A stretch of DNA of 24,586 bases from a virus. Shown piece after piece: positions 8,190 to 23,629 of this stretch (position 1 is the stretch's first letter; each line of letters starts with the position of its first letter). The DNA lies in IMG/VR virus record IMGVR_UViG_3300030329_000415, positions 855-25,440 of that record, one strand, 5' to 3'. The notes beneath the pieces are model-generated. The model was not told the origin of the DNA and searched no databases. It saw only the letters and a program-made list of their open reading frames with translations. The position numbers and the translations under genes are program-made.

Positions 8190-9059
8190 TTAAGCACTCG
8201 TTGATGGAGCAGCTGCATCAAATGTCAGTGGTGCTCCTCGACTGTCATCAAGTTCAAAGACCCCATAGTCGGCAGTCATAACCAGTTCTGTAGCCCTGAG
8301 AGAAGCATCTCTCTGTCTTTCAGTTCTGGTATCTACAGACTTCAGTACAGCAAGTGCAGACTTGTCAGCTATTACACCAACAGCATCATCACTAGCATCT
8401 ACCGAAAGGTTTCCGTCTTCAAATATTGGAACCCCATTTAGTGGTCGTAGTCCACTGAAGAAGTTTCCAAGCAAATCCTCAGACCAACCTGCTGGTACTG
8501 GATATGTGCTAGATGCTGTAACAGCAGTGTTAGCTATATCGAATACTGCATTTGGATGTTGAAGAATATAAGTCTGTGAACCAAACTTGTTAGCTTTAGT
8601 GTAAGCAATTGAACCTGCTACATTAGCAAGACTCATAGTTGCACCAGCAGCACCAAGAGTAGTTCCACCATTTAGACCAGAGTACAAAGCATGTACATCT
8701 GTATCTTTCTTTCGTGCCATACCATCACCAAGCTGTCTACCAACAATGCTCATAACATTGTCAGCTGCTTGCCTGACTAGTTTGTCGGTGAGGATAACCT
8801 TGGCTCCAACCTCAGATGCCGTAAGGTCAACTGTGGTCATACCAATCTCTTCCTCATCTACAATGTCTATGCCATCTTGCAGATCGCTCATAGACATCTG
8901 ACCTACCTTTGGTACGGTCACTTGCTTTGCCCCTTTAGGCAAATCGAATGACTCTATAAGAGCCATAGCAGGAGCGTTATGCTCCTCTGTATATCTTGCT
9001 GATGCAAGAATTATTCTCTGGGCATTTTCAAGATTCCCAGTTGTAGCTGTCTGTGCCAT
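8190..9059 (-). CDS. Major capsid protein (HK97-type fold)
   Basis: This encodes 289 residues from an ATG at 9059, seven bases after AAAGGAGG. The order fits an HK97-fold capsid subunit. A helical N-arm (ENAQRIILASARYTEEH) is followed by an E-loop-like strand region (QVTVPKVGQMSMSDLQDG, then MTTVDLTASEVGAKVILTDKLVRQ). A long spine-helix segment comes next (DNVMSIVGRQLGDGMARKKD), and P-domain strands with an A-domain-like end follow (LRPLNGVPIFED, DAVGVIADKSAL, TADYGVFELDDSRGAPL). It lies directly after the scaffold gene, as usual. The length is typical of a compact capsid protein. I saw no separate prohead protease in the window. Confidence 0.88.
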   Translation of the reverse strand: MAQTATTGNLENAQRIILASARYTEEHNAPAMALIESFDLPKGAKQVTVPKVGQMSMSDLQDGIDIVDEEEIGMTTVDLTASEVGAKVILTDKLVRQAADNVMSIVGRQLGDGMARKKDTDVHALYSGLNGGTTLGAAGATMSLANVAGSIAYTKANKFGSQTYILQHPNAVFDIANTAVTASSTYPVPAGWSEDLLGNFFSGLRPLNGVPIFEDGNLSVDASDDAVGVIADKSALAVLKSVDTRTERQRDASLRATELVMTADYGVFELDDSRGAPLTFDAAAPSTSA

Positions 9060-9924: not shown

Positions 9925-12900
9925 TTATCTATATGGCATCTGTCTGATTTGTGATGGAGACTTCCCATACAAGCCTTCATAAAAAAATACGTTCATTGGG
10001 TGAGTTGGTATATTTTGAAACCACTTAATAACCATTCGATCTAATTCAGGATTAGATATAAGAATACTATATCTATGATTTTTTCTTACCAATTCCATAG
10101 TTTTAATAATAGCAGATATAGCGTAGTTAGCAGGAATCTCATCAGATCGCATTAGTCTACGAGTGCTAACATCTTCTGATAAATACTTATCCCACACTTC
10201 TGATGCGGTCATTCCCAATCTTGCAAGTTCACTGGCATGACCCTGATCTAACATTGATAGTCTCTGGAAGAACTCATCCTGTACTGGCTCTCCTGTAGAG
10301 GGATCGTATTTAATTCCATCTTGCCAGTACCCTGCTTTATCTAAAGCAGCTAGACTATCGTATCTTTCTTGTACAAGAGGATCATGATTACGGTTTACTA
10401 ATGGTCTTAATTCAAGATAAGCATTAAATCTTTCTAATAATCCACCTGTTTCTTTTGCCTCTTCATCATCCCATTGAGAAGTAAAAGCAATCCATTCTGG
10501 TTCAAATGTATCCCAATTGGTTTTCCCTGTAGCGTCTTGGTGTTTTTTTCTTATGTCAAAATAATTCCATAACGCCCATCGGATCGGATATTCAGATCTC
10601 TTTGGCATTTCTTTTTGTTCAGCGATAGCCCACGCTGTCACAGAGTCTATCCCTTTTTGTTCTGTAACAGACTCTACCGCCACATTATGTGCAAAACTTA
10701 TTAACGATAAGGCTTTATTGAAATCTGTAGGTGACCAAGGTTCTTTAGTTCCACCTTGATGTATCCATACTGGATCATTGTTATATAGACTATTGGTTGC
10801 GTATTCGTTTACTAAGGCAACTTCCTTGTTGTATTTATCATATCCAAGTTCTTGTATTTCAACTGTCCACTTTGCCCCTTCATCGTACCAAGTACCATAT
10901 CCTTCTTTTCTTCTTAACTCTTTCTCATTTACAATCTGAGCATTTTCAGGAGCATTAAGGATTAGCAGTTTAGCCTCTGCTCCATGTTCAGTATCGTTAT
11001 CCACATCTTCCCAAGACGAGTATTGTTTTCCAAATTTTTCCTCTAGTAACAACCTAACATTCCTTGTCATCAAGTCATTAAGTTCCTGACCAGTTGATGC
11101 CTTTAGATTCAATCCAGTTAACCCCTGTACAGCAAGTGATAGATTACCTAGCATGGGTTCTTCTGTTGGGAATACATCTGCAACTGTAGCACCGGGAGCA
11201 AGTATTGGATCACTAGGACTGCCTATAGTTGGTAAGTTTTTCTCGCCCAGACTTCTTGTAACTAAAGCACTAACTAACATACCGATACCGATAGGAGTCA
11301 ATAATTGGAAAGTGCTATGTAATACTTTTTGTCCTATACCATACTGCCCTATATCTCTTCCCCTAAAATCCTCACCTTCAAACCATTCCTTTACCTGTCT
11401 AGGGGTGGTACTAAGTCTTGATGCAATTGATCCAATAATTGGAAAGTTGTACTGACCATCAAGTGTTCTTAAAACTGTGTCAAATTGTCCCATAATATCC
11501 CAAGATACCAAATTACCATCTCTTCCTTTAAGTGGAAGACTAGGTTGTAAAAACTTGTCTGCATATCCAAATGGGTATATACGTTGTGCCAGTTCTTCTG
11601 AGATAACTCTATTCGCTCCCGGTATACCACTAATAAAGTTTCCTACAGGGTTATTCTCTGTATTTATAGTAAGAGGATTTAACCTTTCTTTTGGTAACGA
11701 CTCACCAGTAGTTGCTCTATGTATCGTTTCTGCCACCAGATACATAGACACTAATGCACCAAGGTTTCGTGTTATCCAGAATGGTCTGTTTTCTCCAGTA
11801 AACATTCCAGTAAATTGTCTATGAAATGTTTCCTGTTCGTTTATAGAAAACAGAAGTCTTTTAAGAAATGACTTTAAATTACCCCTAATAACGCTTTGTG
11901 ATTCAGGTATAACAGACCAATTTTGATTTACTAATTTAGCAGCAGTTGACATTACTTGATCAGGATTCATAAGAACAGTTTGGTTTCTGTTTGCTTTCTG
12001 TACCATAGGAATAACATTGTATCTATAGTCATGATATATAGATGCTGGATATATACCTTCAAATAATCCATCTTGTATCATATTTTTAAGATTAACTAAT
12101 GCTTGACCAACTTTTTTAGGAACTGTTTTCCATCCAAGTTCTGACATTAATTCACTTTTAACTTCTTCTGTTAAAGCAACACCGTCTTCTTTAGTTATAA
12201 GTATAGTTTCATCTCTGTCATTTAAGCCCAACTCTCTCGATCTTTTATTGTTATAACCTTTAAGATGCGGAAAGTCTGGATACCATTCATCTCTACTTAA
12301 CATATTTTTTCTAAGTTCTTCTCTATATCCCTTAGAGACAAATGCTTTACCCATTGCGTACACATGTTTTGGCATCCGTACTGTGTGACCAAATGCTTCA
12401 ACAATTTCAGGTAGTGCCTGTTTAGGAGTTATAATGCCCCCTTGCCATTTTTTATCTAATGTTTTCCATTTACCGTCTACCATAATGTCAGTACCAGCTC
12501 TTCTTGGTAAGACATCACGTACTGTGTAATACAACGATTCAAACGTTGTTGCAGGACCAGAGTAAACACCTCTTAACCCAAAGTCTATTTGCTGAAAGAA
12601 ACTACCAAATAAGTCTATTGCTTTAGGAATAAATATAAGATCATCGATTGCTATCTCTGGAGGTGTTTTTCCAAAAATCTTTTTCCCAGCAGTAGGCGAA
12701 ACTTGATAACGAGATATTTTCTCAATTGCATTACGATCACCAAAAAATATCTTTAATCCCTTTAACGCCTCTGGATGAAACATCCATACTTCATTGACGC
12801 TTTCTACTGCTCCAGTATTAGGATCAATAGTTACTGGAGTACCATCTACTACTTTATCTGCCTGTAATTTAGGGTCATTACCTAATATCTTATTCATTAC

Positions 12901-15615
12901 ATATGAAGTTTTTCCCTGAAACGCAGGACCCCCTTCTGGAAACTCTTCCCACCCATCTTCTAAGGCTTTTAAATATTCAGGAGTTTCAACTCCGTTTTTA
13001 ACCTTTGTAATAAAATCAGCCTGATGAATAGTTGGATGTCTTAATATATTTAATAACTCTGTTTCCATCCTTACTTTTAATCCAAGTTTGGAAGAGAACA
13101 TAGCTTGCTTGTAAGGATTCCAGTACAGTGGCTTTAAACCAAATTCCATTAGTTGTGGTAAATCAGCACTACGTCTTTTAAACTCTATCGACTGTGTTCT
13201 TCCTATCCTATTAGCATTATTGTAATTATCTATTTTGTTATGGAACTTATTCCAATCTAAGTCTACTGGAACAAGTCCTCTGTAAAAATACTGTTCAGTA
13301 TTAGTACCAAGATGATCAAAGTTTTTTAACTTTAATCCACCGTTCTCCCTAAGAGTAGACTCCATATCTGTTAGTGCTCGTAGGTTATGGTACTGACGCA
13401 TTACCAGTTCTCGTTTAGCACCATACCTAGTTGCCATCTCTTCTACATTAGGCAACCATTTTGTATCATGTAACGCATAATACAAAAGCCTTAAATCACC
13501 GGGTTCTTGTACAGTACCGATAGCCTCATCAAAAACATTACCATCTTTATCAATCCAACCTAATTCTTCTAACTCATCTGACCCATTCTTAATGGTATCA
13601 AGCATATAATCGCCATGTGCTTTTTGTGTACCTTCATATAAACGAGCAATAGTTTTAAATGGGGCTTCCACTCCACCCTTTTTTACTAACCCTTTAATCA
13701 AAGCACGTATACCATCTCTTGATGCTATTTCATTAGTAGCTGCTACCTCTCTCCACACCTTTCTTGCATTATCAAATATGTATCCCTCAACCTGATGCTT
13801 ACCTTTAACCCAATCACTTACCTTGCTCATATCTGGAACTGTTTTAATAACACCAGCTTCATCTGGTATGGTTTTTGTAACAGGGATCACTCCTCTTTTG
13901 GGAGCAGTTTGATCAATGAACTCAGATAGTGCTGATTCTAATTTAACCCCCATCCAAGACTTTTTAGTTGGTGGTAATGGTCTGTTAGGTTTTGGCTTGT
14001 ACGCATTTGATGCTTCATCATATCCATAGAAGTCATTAACAAATCTAGTCCATTCATTATCTATAACATCTACTGAACCAACATCGTCAATAAAGAATGA
14101 TTGCTGTCCTTCATTAACCTGTCTTTTAAATTTTGCCTGTAATGTTCCGTAATCTTCAAACGGAAGTTCTTGCTGTCCGGGTAATGTATCAATGTAGGCA
14201 GCTACTTTATTTCTACTTGCTTGACTTGTATCTCCAAACATAGCTTGGGAAATTTCATCAGTCCATTGTCTAACCCATCTTTTATGTCCGGGGTTTGTAG
14301 TAGTATGATCAATTCCTTTCTGCCTGTAACCTAAAAGCCTGTCTATCGTAGCTTTAACATTTTCAGGAACAAGAGCATTAAATTGAGATGCGTCTTGTAT
14401 GTCTTTGCCTACTTCTAGCCTATCTCTAATATATGTCGGTTCTGCTTCAGCTGCTTGTCTTGCTTCTGCTTTAGTAACATCTGGTTGGAACGCTCCTCTT
14501 CTTCTACCAGAAGGTGTTGTGGTTCTTCCAACTGCTACAGCTGGATCCCATATCATAGATGGCTCACGCTTTTGTCGTATCAATAAATCTTCAGCTGGTA
14601 CATCAGCAAGTGGTGTTCCGAATGGATTAAACATATCTTGCTGATATTCAAATGGTAATGGTTGTTGTACAGCATCTATATCACTTGGAACCACACGACT
14701 TGGTGGGGGAGTTATATCAACTGTAGGAGTAAACTGTTGCCCTAAGTCATCAGCAAAACGACCCCATGCTCCAGCAGTCTGAGGTTGGAAATACTGAGTT
14801 CCAAGATCAGTAACAGGTGCAGTATAAGAAGGAGTTGTTACATCGGTTAGTACAGCAGCTCCTTTAGGTGGTGTAAATTTAGCAGTCTGTCCCAGTTGTC
14901 TTCCTACACTACCTACTAGACCACCGCCTAATACTTCAGCACCACCTTCAGCAATTACCTGTTTCCATACAGGTATCTCTCCTGCATCGACAGATTGTTG
15001 ATATGCAGCTGCTAGGTTTTCTATAGTTCCTTTCACATCAGCAAACTGCTGTATCTCTCCCTTTAACCCCGGAGCCTTATCTCTTTCTTGTAAGGCTTGA
15101 TATCGTTCTCTTACTCCCGGTTCAGACAAAAGCCTATTCATAGCAACCAACCCACCACCGGGAGCAATAAAATCTGCCCATGCGTTTATTGTGGGAAGTA
15201 ATTCTTTCCCAACACCAGCAGCCATCTGTCCAAATCCATACCCCCCATCTTTAGGTTCACCAAGCCTCTCTTTGAATCTTGGATCTACATCTAATATATC
15301 TTTTGTACCACCTCTTGTTCTAATAGCTTGGGCTATAATATTGTCATAGGTAACATCTTCTACAGCACCCCTACCGACCTGTTTAACAAAGTCTAATGCC
15401 CCACCGCCTATGCCTTTCCAGTAATCGGTACTAAAGTAGGTTGGGTCTTCAACAAGTTGTCCACCTACAGGTGTGAGATATGATTGATATTGTGTTAATG
15501 CAGCATTAACTGTGGCGGTATCTGTGGGTAGCTGCGTCCCCCACTTCTCAGCAAGTTGTGGGAATCGTGCTATTGCTCTTGACCATACTGCTTGAATCTC
15601 TTCAGGAGAAGACAT
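9925..15615 (-). CDS. Giant 1896-residue protein, probable internal/ejection virion protein
   Basis: This is by far the largest gene of the window. Its ATG immediately follows the TAA of the upstream gene and has no clear Shine-Dalgarno, so it probably depends on coupled translation. The N-terminus (about 1-240) is Gly-rich and helical (YGFGQMAAGVGKELLP). The region 240-420 is Pro-rich and probably flexible, and 430-1250 is mainly helical and charged. Two hydrophobic segments near 1283 (NLGALVSMYLVAETIH) and 1438 (LLTPIGIGMLVSALVTR) could insert into membranes. The C-terminal 400 residues are Trp-rich. I see no lytic transglycosylase, peptidase or kinase motif. Giant multidomain proteins (polyvalent or ejection type) are encoded near portal and capsid in short-tailed phages. 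This is inferred to be carried in the capsid and released with DNA. Confidence 0.75.
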   Translation of the reverse strand: MSSPEEIQAVWSRAIARFPQLAEKWGTQLPTDTATVNAALTQYQSYLTPVGGQLVEDPTYFSTDYWKGIGGGALDFVKQVGRGAVEDVTYDNIIAQAIRTRGGTKDILDVDPRFKERLGEPKDGGYGFGQMAAGVGKELLPTINAWADFIAPGGGLVAMNRLLSEPGVRERYQALQERDKAPGLKGEIQQFADVKGTIENLAAAYQQSVDAGEIPVWKQVIAEGGAEVLGGGLVGSVGRQLGQTAKFTPPKGAAVLTDVTTPSYTAPVTDLGTQYFQPQTAGAWGRFADDLGQQFTPTVDITPPPSRVVPSDIDAVQQPLPFEYQQDMFNPFGTPLADVPAEDLLIRQKREPSMIWDPAVAVGRTTTPSGRRRGAFQPDVTKAEARQAAEAEPTYIRDRLEVGKDIQDASQFNALVPENVKATIDRLLGYRQKGIDHTTTNPGHKRWVRQWTDEISQAMFGDTSQASRNKVAAYIDTLPGQQELPFEDYGTLQAKFKRQVNEGQQSFFIDDVGSVDVIDNEWTRFVNDFYGYDEASNAYKPKPNRPLPPTKKSWMGVKLESALSEFIDQTAPKRGVIPVTKTIPDEAGVIKTVPDMSKVSDWVKGKHQVEGYIFDNARKVWREVAATNEIASRDGIRALIKGLVKKGGVEAPFKTIARLYEGTQKAHGDYMLDTIKNGSDELEELGWIDKDGNVFDEAIGTVQEPGDLRLLYYALHDTKWLPNVEEMATRYGAKRELVMRQYHNLRALTDMESTLRENGGLKLKNFDHLGTNTEQYFYRGLVPVDLDWNKFHNKIDNYNNANRIGRTQSIEFKRRSADLPQLMEFGLKPLYWNPYKQAMFSSKLGLKVRMETELLNILRHPTIHQADFITKVKNGVETPEYLKALEDGWEEFPEGGPAFQGKTSYVMNKILGNDPKLQADKVVDGTPVTIDPNTGAVESVNEVWMFHPEALKGLKIFFGDRNAIEKISRYQVSPTAGKKIFGKTPPEIAIDDLIFIPKAIDLFGSFFQQIDFGLRGVYSGPATTFESLYYTVRDVLPRRAGTDIMVDGKWKTLDKKWQGGIITPKQALPEIVEAFGHTVRMPKHVYAMGKAFVSKGYREELRKNMLSRDEWYPDFPHLKGYNNKRSRELGLNDRDETILITKEDGVALTEEVKSELMSELGWKTVPKKVGQALVNLKNMIQDGLFEGIYPASIYHDYRYNVIPMVQKANRNQTVLMNPDQVMSTAAKLVNQNWSVIPESQSVIRGNLKSFLKRLLFSINEQETFHRQFTGMFTGENRPFWITRNLGALVSMYLVAETIHRATTGESLPKERLNPLTINTENNPVGNFISGIPGANRVISEELAQRIYPFGYADKFLQPSLPLKGRDGNLVSWDIMGQFDTVLRTLDGQYNFPIIGSIASRLSTTPRQVKEWFEGEDFRGRDIGQYGIGQKVLHSTFQLLTPIGIGMLVSALVTRSLGEKNLPTIGSPSDPILAPGATVADVFPTEEPMLGNLSLAVQGLTGLNLKASTGQELNDLMTRNVRLLLEEKFGKQYSSWEDVDNDTEHGAEAKLLILNAPENAQIVNEKELRRKEGYGTWYDEGAKWTVEIQELGYDKYNKEVALVNEYATNSLYNNDPVWIHQGGTKEPWSPTDFNKALSLISFAHNVAVESVTEQKGIDSVTAWAIAEQKEMPKRSEYPIRWALWNYFDIRKKHQDATGKTNWDTFEPEWIAFTSQWDDEEAKETGGLLERFNAYLELRPLVNRNHDPLVQERYDSLAALDKAGYWQDGIKYDPSTGEPVQDEFFQRLSMLDQGHASELARLGMTASEVWDKYLSEDVSTRRLMRSDEIPANYAISAIIKTMELVRKNHRYSILISNPELDRMVIKWFQNIPTHPMNVFFYEGLYGKSPSQIRQMPYR

Positions 15616-21024: not shown

Positions 21025-22371
21025 CTACCACCTCTTTACTTTTATGAACGAGTTATTCCGTAAATGACCGTAACCGAATCTATCTACTAGTCCATAGATC
21101 ACAGCTTTCACACCATGATTGTATCTATCTTCTGGTGTTTCGCCAACTATATTACCATCTCTATCGGTTCTCCAGCGATAGGCTTGTGTTTGTCCATTGA
21201 ACGGATTAGGTTCTGCCCCAAACTCTGACAGAATTCCACGACAACTTGGGTTAAAAATGATTTTTGGGGTATTAGAAATTGGATCGGGCTTCAAAAACGA
21301 CTTTAGCCTTTCAGTTCCCTCATTGATTTGAATCTTCTGAGCAGCAAGATATAGTCCTGTTTCTTCTAGCCAAATCTCTGCTGGGGCAGACATAGCCTGA
21401 TGCTGGTATCCAGCTATGTCGATCACCCCACCGTGGACATCTTTCCACCATGGTCGTGACTTGGCTATGTCGATTATCTCTGTTGTAATCAGGTTCTGTT
21501 CGTATATCTCGTCTATTACGCATATCTGACCATTGATTTCCTGTACTGCCTCTACAGCATAACCACCTGCATACCCCGGATCCATCCATAAATATACAGG
21601 ACTATCCACAGACCACTTAGCCTCATCACTGATATGTATATCTGGACGGAACTCTCCAAATACTAAACCCTGTGGCGGTGTAGGTATACCCTCAATACGC
21701 TCCATAAAGAAGTCATCAGAGGCTACAGCCTTCAATCTAAGTATCTCAGGGTCATCTTTACCACCGGGATACAGGTACTGATTGGAATAGCTTGGTAGAG
21801 AAAACGATTGTTCCTCATCTCCACCGTGTTGCCACTGTTGAAATAACTGTGGATACCAACCTAAAGAGCCTTCAAATGTACCACCAAGGAACATCCATCC
21901 CCTCTTAGGTGCACACCTACCTCTCATTCTATGGAAACTTTCCAAGTCTAACTGGCTCGCCTCACATCCAATGATGCCATTAGGTGCTCTCATAGCCAGA
22001 GTTCTGGGGTCTTTAGCTGATTTAGTCTCTATCCTAGTACCATCAGCAAGCACAATCCTACCGGGATCAACTCGTTTGGTAACTTCAGAAAGTATTCCCA
22101 GAGCAGCAAAGTCCTGTGTTAAGTATTCAAACTCTGCCCTAGTCCTTTCGTAGTCGGCAGCTACCAACCAGTAAAGCCCCGGTTCATCGTTCTCTAAGAA
22201 CCTAGACACCAGATACTTGGATGCCACCATAGACTTACCAGCTTGCTCACCACCAGCTACGAGAACAAATCTCTTACGGCAGTTAAGGATTGGTATTTGT
22301 TTTTCAGTAGGACTAAAGTCTAGCTTGGAAAATAAGTATTCCGTTACATCTGAATTACTTGCTGTTGTCAT
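21025..22371 (-). CDS. terL: Terminase large subunit
   Basis: This encodes 448 residues from an ATG at 22371, with GAGGGA eight bases upstream, and overlaps the small-subunit gene by 17 bp. Walker A is AGGEQAGKS (residues 39-47). The Walker B and catalytic region is IIGCEASQLD, with Glu in place of a full DE pair. The coupling motif LGGTFEGSLGWYP follows. The nuclease half has the expected acidic residues: D264 in LWMDPGYAGG, then VIDEIYEQ near 286 and GGVIDIAG near 316. The enzyme packages DNA into proheads by ATP hydrolysis and cuts concatemers. A 14-bp palindrome copy (21906-21919) is embedded in the coding sequence at GRCAP. Confidence 0.93.
   Translation of the reverse strand: MTTASNSDVTEYLFSKLDFSPTEKQIPILNCRKRFVLVAGGEQAGKSMVASKYLVSRFLENDEPGLYWLVAADYERTRAEFEYLTQDFAALGILSEVTKRVDPGRIVLADGTRIETKSAKDPRTLAMRAPNGIIGCEASQLDLESFHRMRGRCAPKRGWMFLGGTFEGSLGWYPQLFQQWQHGGDEEQSFSLPSYSNQYLYPGGKDDPEILRLKAVASDDFFMERIEGIPTPPQGLVFGEFRPDIHISDEAKWSVDSPVYLWMDPGYAGGYAVEAVQEINGQICVIDEIYEQNLITTEIIDIAKSRPWWKDVHGGVIDIAGYQHQAMSAPAEIWLEETGLYLAAQKIQINEGTERLKSFLKPDPISNTPKIIFNPSCRGILSEFGAEPNPFNGQTQAYRWRTDRDGNIVGETPEDRYNHGVKAVIYGLVDRFGYGHLRNNSFIKVKRW
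21906..21919. repeat. Palindrome copy 5 inside terL
   Basis: TAGGTG and CACCTA flank a CA centre, in coding sequence for GRCAP of the terminase large subunit. It is the copy with the shortest flanking match inside a gene. Confidence 0.65.
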
Positions 22372-22834
22372 CAGATTCCCTCTTCTTGGAGAGTATCTTT
22401 TCTACCTCATCTATAGCGTTCTTCTTTGCGTCTACAGTCTCGGCATCCATAGGGATTGCCTTAACTTCACCCGATTCCTTTCGCCATCTTTTGAGTTCGG
22501 CAAGAAGTTCTTTCGCCTCTGAGACATCTCCCTTGCTGTTGCGGTTAAACTCAGGTATGAAAGCGTTCATCATACTGAGAAGAAGTACAGGATTGTCCTT
22601 GGGACTCTGTGCCTTCACACGCTCCAGAGCCAAGTCCTGAAGGTATTCTTTAAATACCTGAAAGGCTTCTGCTTTCTTGTCTTTAAAATTATAGAGGTTG
22701 TCCTGCTCCCACCTGTAAATGGTAGACCTAGCTACCCCAGCTGCCTCTGCAGCTGTACGAACAGTACCGCATTCCCCATAAGCAGCTATAAAAGCATCTT
22801 GTGTTGCTATTGTTTCATTCTTTTCTTTTGGCAT
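22355..22834 (-). CDS. terS: Terminase small subunit
   Basis: This encodes 159 residues from an ATG at 22834 that shares one base with the upstream stop. Residues 24-42 (TVRTAAEAAGVARSTIYRW) form a clear helix-turn-helix of the terminase-small type. A helical oligomerisation region follows (FKEYLQDLALERVKAQ), then an acidic/basic C-terminus (SKKRESDDNSK) that could contact the large subunit. It recognises phage DNA and loads the packaging motor. The call rests on the helix-turn-helix, size and direct overlap with the large subunit. A plain DNA-binding regulator is the less likely alternative. Confidence 0.85.
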   Translation of the reverse strand: MPKEKNETIATQDAFIAAYGECGTVRTAAEAAGVARSTIYRWEQDNLYNFKDKKAEAFQVFKEYLQDLALERVKAQSPKDNPVLLLSMMNAFIPEFNRNSKGDVSEAKELLAELKRWRKESGEVKAIPMDAETVDAKKNAIDEVEKILSKKRESDDNSK

Positions 22835-23061
22835 TATGAATCACTCTGTAGAACATCTTTAGCTAACGCAATAATACCAGCGACACAGCCAACTGTCACC
22901 TCAGTCATTCCTTTGAACATTCCAACAAATGCAACCACCCCAAGTAATATGATACTTAGAAATATCTGTGGTCTTAGCTTACCAATAAATTTTTCCATAG
23001 GACTGTCTTGCCTCCCAGATAGTCCACCAAATGCTGTCGGTCTTTCTTTATTCATAAGCAT
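22834..23061 (-). CDS. Small membrane protein (possible holin-like)
   Basis: This encodes 75 residues with two hydrophobic segments at about 33-49 (IFLSIILLGVVAFVGMF) and 55-67 (VTVGCVAGIIALA), separated by a short KGMTE turn, giving a hairpin topology. The N-terminus is basic (MNKERP, then GRQDSPMEKFIGKLRPQ). There is no signal peptide. No good Shine-Dalgarno precedes the ATGs at 23061 or 23055. An internal ATG (at M22) lies 12 bases after GGGAGG and would yield a shorter protein. It is the first gene of the leftward operon. Size and topology fit a small holin or membrane accessory protein, but no lysin is visible nearby, so the function stays open. Confidence 0.65.
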   Translation of the reverse strand: MLMNKERPTAFGGLSGRQDSPMEKFIGKLRPQIFLSIILLGVVAFVGMFKGMTEVTVGCVAGIIALAKDVLQSDS

Positions 23062-23077
23062 ATCATACAGTATCAGA

Positions 23078-23126
23078 TGTGTTTCATCCTATATAACCCC
23101 CCGTAGGGGGGTATAGGTGAAACACA
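23078..23126. repeat. Long inverted repeat with C6-GTA-G6 hairpin
   Basis: TGTGTTTCA at 23078-23086 pairs with TGAAACACA at 23118-23126. Inside, CCTATA pairs with TATAGG, and CCCCCC (23097-23102) with GGGGGG (23106-23111) around a GTA loop. Small bulges (T, and TAA) interrupt the left arm. It lies in the leader of the leftward operon. No T-run follows on either strand, so a simple terminator is not supported. Confidence 0.75.
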
Positions 23127-23157
23127 ACATGTATAACAGATATAACTATTACCCTCT

Positions 23158-23172
23158 TGTTTCACTGAAACA
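23158..23172. repeat. TGTTTCA-C-TGAAACA palindrome, operator-like
   Basis: This is a 15-bp odd palindrome and the tightest of three inverted pairs of the TGAAAC box. The form (two half-sites around one central base) is typical of a dimeric repressor or activator site. Confidence 0.7.
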
Positions 23173-23225
23173 TGTTGCAATTTCCTTGAAACATTGCATG
23201 AAGTTTCAAGTTGTTTCTTGCAACA
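23173..23225. repeat. Nested inverted repeat TGTTGCAA / CTTGAAAC
   Basis: Outer arms TGTTGCAA (23173-23180) and TTGCAACA (23218-23225) enclose inner arms CTTGAAAC (23185-23192) and GTTTCAAG (23203-23210), with a 10-base loop. All arms match perfectly. This is either a cruciform or two overlapping operator types. Confidence 0.7.
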
Positions 23226-23324
23226 GCCCTCTTTAGCAAAAAAATTCTGTCATGGGTAGAAGCTAAGTATATTAGAGATTCTTAAGCCATACCCCCTACA
23301 GTTATGATTGACTGTCTGAATTGC

Positions 23325-23421: not shown

Positions 23422-23450
23422 TTTACATCGTGTCTATTTTGGTATAAACT
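23422..23450 (+). promoter_or_regulatory. Candidate rightward promoter
   Basis: The -35 is TTTACA (23422-23427). The -10 is TATAAA (23443-23448) with a 15-base spacer, or TAAACT (23445-23450) with 17. It lies about 90 bp upstream of the first convincing rightward gene and faces it. Confidence 0.5.
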
Positions 23451-23539: not shown

Positions 23540-23629
23540 ATGGCTGAGTTAGTCACAAATACATATGAAGCAAATTTAACAGATTCCGACATGGAGGAGT
23601 TGGAAATATTACGTGAATTTGGATACTAA
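23540..23629 (+). CDS. 29-residue acidic peptide
   Basis: ATG at 23540 follows AGGAG by ten bases. The product begins MAELVTNTYEANLTDSD and ends EELEILREFGY; it is acidic and probably helical at its end. It is the first reasonable gene of the rightward unit. It overlaps the possible GTG start of the next gene. The function is unknown. Confidence 0.45.
   Translation: MAELVTNTYEANLTDSDMEELEILREFGY

Follow-up and report, generated by a model that had tools for sequence, protein, structure and literature searches.

A conserved 66-bp core, a hairpin and clade-specific inverted boxes beside the terminase genes: a possible packaging site in a large group of uncultured, mostly marine phages

The window (the whole stretch of 24,586 nucleotides that was analyzed, which makes up almost the whole of a linear viral record of 25,440 bp) carries a three-part element between its divergent gene units that consists, from the terminase side outwards, of a hairpin, a box array and a conserved 66-bp core. 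An earlier note on this DNA had described an array of GTTTCA/TGAAAC boxes; this finding is real and larger than noted, as the boxes are the clade-specific part of the larger element. The interval given in that note ends 5 bp before the core, which is the most conserved part of the site and had been overlooked. We put at about even the chances that the region is a terminase recognition site (cos- or pac-like) of a marine tailed-phage family, to which the hairpin and boxes would be accessory; because the core is tied to one terminase family, packaging is indicated rather than an origin or an operator switch. The leftward genes of the window are structural, and the rightward genes begin near 23613. 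The features referred to below are as follows.

8190-9059, leftward: major head protein gene.
21025-22371, minus strand: TerL (terminase large subunit) gene; PHROG terminase large subunit, E 1.3e-19.
22355-22834, minus strand: TerS (terminase small subunit) gene; PHROG terminase small subunit, E 3.5e-06; aligned with relatives; helix-turn-helix predicted.
22834-23061, minus strand: gene for a 75-aa membrane protein, the first of the leftward unit, with homologues at the same place in many relatives.
23078-23126, unstranded: hairpin or palindrome of 49 nt, TGTGTTTCA-tCCTATAtaaCCCCCC-GTA-GGGGGGTATAGG-TGAAACACA, with the first box pair, inverted, as its base.
23081-23086, minus strand: TGAAAC box 1; forms the left arm at the base of the hairpin.
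23118-23123, plus strand: TGAAAC box 2; forms the right arm at the base of the hairpin.
23159-23164, minus strand: TGAAAC box 3, in an inverted pair with box 4 (GTTTCA-c-TGAAAC); relatives carry equivalent pairs.
23166-23171, plus strand: TGAAAC box 4, paired with box 3.
23187-23192, plus strand: TGAAAC box 5.
23203-23208, minus strand: TGAAAC box 6.
23231-23296, plus strand: conserved 66-bp core, CTTT-N6-AAAAATTCTGTCA-T-GGGTA-N23-TTAAGCCATACCCCC, with TCTG from 23246 and AAGCC from 23284.
23422-23450, plus strand: possible sigma-70-type promoter of the rightward unit, TTTACA-17-TAAACT; a consensus match, not above chance.

All six boxes claimed in the earlier note were found where it had placed them (23081, 23118, 23159, 23166, 23187 and 23203), and its spacings of 31, 1 and 10 bases within the three inverted pairs are right. 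The box array proper spans 23159-23208, between the hairpin and the core. Six TGAAAC/GTTTCA words fall within 128 bp, where the maximum in 300 dinucleotide-Markov simulations of the 24.6-kb window was three; the highest count reached by any 6-mer was five in 40 simulations of the window, against the six TGAAAC observed. The location between divergent units and the interpretation of the boxes as sites of a protein-binding type are likewise supported. That note had also proposed TTGCAA as an interleaved inverted pair. The word is present at 23175 and 23218, within an inverted pair (TGTTGCAA / TTGCAACA); it is probably incidental, however, because the hexamer is its own reverse complement and is unmarked in the nine relatives compared, and for the latter reason we rejected it as a component of the site. 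Lack of conservation in related phages had been named as an outcome that would count against the array, a test that it passed since close relatives conserve it: at the same place they carry a hairpin, GTTTCA/TGAAAC and GAAATTTC boxes, and the core.

The hairpin lies 17 bp upstream of the leftward gene for the 75-aa membrane protein, which had no match in Pfam or PHROG. The DNA fold of 23070-23240 (171 nt) has an energy of -33.1 kcal/mol (z -7.3), and the fold is kept despite changed sequence in 12 relatives. A strong hairpin is found left of the core in 88% of 83 loci as compared with 18% of dinucleotide shuffles, and in 63 of these 83 it is stronger than all eight of the locus's own shuffles; only a few loci, such as L027, L110 and L194, are without one. 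In several clades (L084, L149 and L191) the clade's own box word stands at the hairpin base. The hairpin was rejected as an intrinsic terminator, as a T-tract is absent and no terminator was called, and a search of the window for tRNAs and Rfam RNAs found none.

Among other clades the box words change (AGTAAC, GTAAAC, GTTAAC, TGAAAT, TGTAAT, TGTACA and more) while the core is kept. The consensus of the core, derived from 72 non-redundant loci, is cTTT-N6-AAAAwTCTGkCA-N-GGGTA-N23-ccAAGmCaTrCCCCC; about 30 of its bases are fixed, and every block stands at a fixed distance from the others. The strict pattern matched 86 stretches in a scan of IMG/VR, and the IMG/VR loci collected contain 84 distinct cores when up to two changes are allowed; a looser form, with the spacing unchanged, occurs in more distant groups. 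Exactly one copy was found in 11 of the 19 records searched, and no record held more. A search for conservation to the right of the core detected nothing beyond its last C.

Eleven of the 13 core-bearing records searched with a TerL profile encode a TerL of the window's family. The two exceptions are a 4-kb fragment and G020, a probable chimera. The core lies upstream of TerS and TerL, and in nearly all loci with enough sequence both genes are on the array side, so that the site adjoins the terminase genes as a cos or pac site does; the usual neighbour on that side is TerS itself, or a small helix-turn-helix (HTH) or membrane protein followed by TerS. Beyond the core, in contrast, the early genes are variable. 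The only widely shared one encodes an AAA_25 ATPase, which has 22-62% identity among genomes with almost identical cores. We also observed one locus (L027, region 1130-1890 upstream of TerL) in which TerS stands between the array, here made of GTTAACTT repeats, and the core; array and core can therefore be separated by a gene.

The contig G020 (40,134 bp, entered as L210 and L211) probably combines two phages, one of which contributed the core and its early genes and the other a different TerL. The early genes in the main part of the contig (MoxR/VWA) are related, but the TerL there is the different one and no core lies beside it; as a single case this fits an association of the core with the terminase. 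Because protein stretches at about 4.2 kb and at the far end of the contig are near-identical, a false join is suspected, and the possibility that G020 is a packaging satellite was rejected in favor of a probable assembly chimera.

From the anatomy, the conservation, the rigid spacing and the co-occurrence with one terminase family we infer that the terminase binds and cuts at this site. The 66-bp core would be read by the terminase itself, with the cut in or next to the core, and the A-tract of the core would supply a bend. Accessory proteins that load or position the terminase, or that couple packaging to late transcription, would have their sites in the hairpin and in the clade-specific inverted boxes. 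This reading is favored because the core is rigid, present in at most one copy per record and located beside the terminase genes, with nothing conserved to its right and variable genes beyond it, and also because it is absent from 294 genomes of the likely host class, three long contigs end within it and its layout is cos-like. It is weakened because most contigs run through the core and the ends within it differ by up to 33 bp, because the type of box does not covary with the HTH of TerS beyond TerL distance and because TerS lies between array and core in L027.

The known packaging sites resemble this element in part. At the pac site of P1, hexamers flank the cut on both sides. The window shares with it a hexamer cluster near the terminase genes; however, in the window and its relatives the boxes are confined to the TerS side of the core, unlike the two-sided arrangement of P1, and the box word changes between clades. 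We know of no cos, pac or origin that matches in full the combination of a fixed core, interchangeable boxes and a box-bearing hairpin, and a literature search of partial coverage found no description of one. A similar layout is that of the lambda-type cos (cosQ-cosN-cosB; lambda, 21 and N15), which also lies beside TerS, with repeats towards TerS that vary from one relative to another, a conserved outer part and a bend element in between (PMC4669245). In lambda-like phages cosQ and cosN are conserved whereas cosB, which is bound by TerS, differs (PMC4669245). The likeness is one of layout, no sequence likeness having been seen, and there are two further differences: the specificity of the lambda-type cosB follows the HTH of TerS whereas the boxes of the window's family did not covary with it beyond TerL distance, and the window site has a long box-carrying hairpin. 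The TerS of HK97 binds at a C:G/A-tract junction that lies 15-29 bp away from its cut (PMC11331095), and, as in the window, the TerS gene is directly downstream of cos. Towards TerS, both sites have a CCC/A-tract junction, which reads TAACCCGATTTTTTT in HK97 and TACCC..ATTTTTTT in the core of the window, and towards the outside both have a G-run. The HK97 ends, which hold a G-run and, on the opposite side, TAACCCGATTTTTTT, resemble GGGGG...TACCC...ATTTTTTT in the core, a likeness that was recognized by eye and serves as a lead; the spacing differs, and the HK97 stretches read have neither a box array nor a hairpin.

We then considered which protein might read the boxes. With TerL distance allowed for, the distance between TerS HTHs did not predict box similarity (partial r 0.02, P 0.25), and the helix SRSTVYRW is common to L010 and L026, yet their boxes differ. 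TerS as the box-binding protein is thus not supported by covariation beyond TerL distance or by this pair of loci, and it could bind the core instead. The remaining candidates are a 135-aa winged-helix protein (L050:10099-10506) shared by the TGAAAC-box group and, in part of the loci, small HTH proteins whose genes adjoin the array. The latter include two families, RSRSYP..PRTT.R.WI and GLG.MS..SKDIAR..GVSRQRVGQIAR, with genes between array and TerS (ORFs left of the array in L031, L042, L065, L088 and L099 and in L090, L104, L110 and L126). A more elaborate and rather improbable form of the packaging reading is a modular control locus that combines the fixed terminase core with interchangeable boxes and a hairpin bearing the same boxes, in which a separate small HTH protein rather than TerS would read the boxes and this second phage factor would license packaging or couple it to late transcription or replication.

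The earlier note had offered an iteron-type origin or a multi-operator switch as readings of the array. As a replication origin, the boxes would bind a phage initiator, the hairpin and AT-rich stretches would aid melting and the core would load the replication machinery. Clade-specific repeats beside a conserved part, as in iteron-type origins, and the strong hairpin agree with this, the widely shared AAA_25 ATPase could be a helicase, and minima of GC and AT skew lie within about 1 kb in seven of seven sequences tested. The skew check suggested in that note thus gave a minimum near the core, but one that lies up to about 1 kb beyond it and coincides with the change in transcription direction, and skew therefore cannot separate an origin from divergent transcription. 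Iteron-type origins, such as those of lambda O and of plasmids, have direct, phased repeats and an initiator. In the array, by contrast, the boxes occur in both orientations and at unphased steps (37, 41, 7, 21 and 16) rather than as direct repeats at helical spacing; no initiator was recognized among the early proteins scanned, and the shared ATPase is as divergent as described above where cores are nearly the same. DnaA boxes lie near the core in only eight loci and are not a regular feature, so that a DnaA-dependent origin was rejected. The iteron-type origin was not supported in the form proposed, and we consider a replication origin unlikely.

In an operator switch, a phage HTH protein would act through the boxes and hairpin to govern late transcription to the left and early transcription to the right. 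The position between divergent units, the inverted boxes of a dimer type, the start of the late genes beside the hairpin and the genes for small HTH proteins that adjoin the array in many relatives are all consistent with this. A switch does not explain, however, why a rigid core is tied to a terminase family while the early genes vary. The sole predicted rightward promoter is the weak match, which lies some 200 bp past the array, and the selected early proteins that were scanned included no recognizable repressor or integrase; these two points weaken the multi-operator switch as proposed, and a switch seems to us a doubtful explanation for the element. In relatives, TTTGACAT words occur commonly to the right of the core. 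The scans covered selected early proteins of three relatives and one of the window, and an initiator or repressor may therefore have gone unrecognized. An operator role limited to the boxes could be compatible with a core for packaging; the boxes may belong to either an origin or an operator while the core serves packaging.

Finally, the single rigid copy per genome at most and the imperfect inverted halves of the core (GGGTA / TACCC) are consistent with a site-specific recombination or partition site (att-, dif- or parS-like). The spacer of a recombinase site is 6-8 bp, unlike the 23-bp variable spacer of the core; no integrase or partition gene was recognized among the early proteins scanned, and the core is absent from all 294 genomes searched of the class Dehalococcoidia, the likely host class. 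We regard a site of this kind as very improbable, and for the last of these reasons a host-encoded site was also rejected.

Contig ends were also inspected with respect to the proposed packaging site. Among 15 TerL-anchored contigs with a length of 20 kb or more, three (L030, L127 and L116) end inside the core and one more (L021) in the array. The Poisson probability of three ends in a 33-bp stretch is about 1e-6 to 8e-6, a post hoc figure for a stretch chosen after the ends had been seen; the three ends are up to 33 bp apart and most contigs continue through the core. Among shorter contigs of unrelated strains, end clusters occur to the right of the core at +243 (L007, L084 and L096) and at +75 to +78 (L009, L074, L094, L099 and L122), which are perhaps an assembly effect. 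The latter cluster had suggested that a conserved cut sequence lies to the right of the core, an idea that was rejected as nothing is conserved there. Because these two clusters are unexplained, a real alternative is that assemblies broke where sequence is conserved or repeated, and as evidence for genome ends the contig ends are suggestive only. One query for early-side contigs ending at the core returned two already known genomes and nothing else, and any left/right asymmetry of contig ends around the core was excluded as evidence because IMG/VR keeps contigs by viral marker genes.

Many relatives of the window are present in IMG/VR, whereas a search of a phage collection with the DNA of the region gave no match, and among the matches listed the TerL proteins of cultured phages, from actinobacterial phages, are 24-27% identical. 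The hosts are probably Chloroflexota, as weakly suggested by the cellular matches of the TerL profile, which are three Chloroflexota MAG contigs (55-58% identical). These contigs (L134, L132 and L133) have no recognizable core upstream of their TerL relatives. Two relatives of the window encode a Mom-like DNA-modification protein (Pfam Mom, E 6.4e-39; PHROG Mom-like; L045:5874-6548, minus strand, and L050:12500-13198, plus strand), which is unusual for phages of a probable Chloroflexota host. The head-gene cluster of the window includes an ORF of 1,896 aa (9925-15615, minus strand) with no PHROG match, at whose place four relatives have ORFs of 1,727-2,088 aa.

The signature TCTGKCA-N2-GGTA-N25-AAGMC-N-TRCCCCC marks a large group of phages, uncultured and mostly marine, whose hosts are probably Chloroflexota. 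If the element is a packaging site, it predicts the position at which the genome is cut and would let contigs be oriented and completed; it could also flag satellites that borrow the packaging machinery. The contrast between a fixed core and changeable boxes provides a natural experiment on the evolution of packaging or replication specificity.
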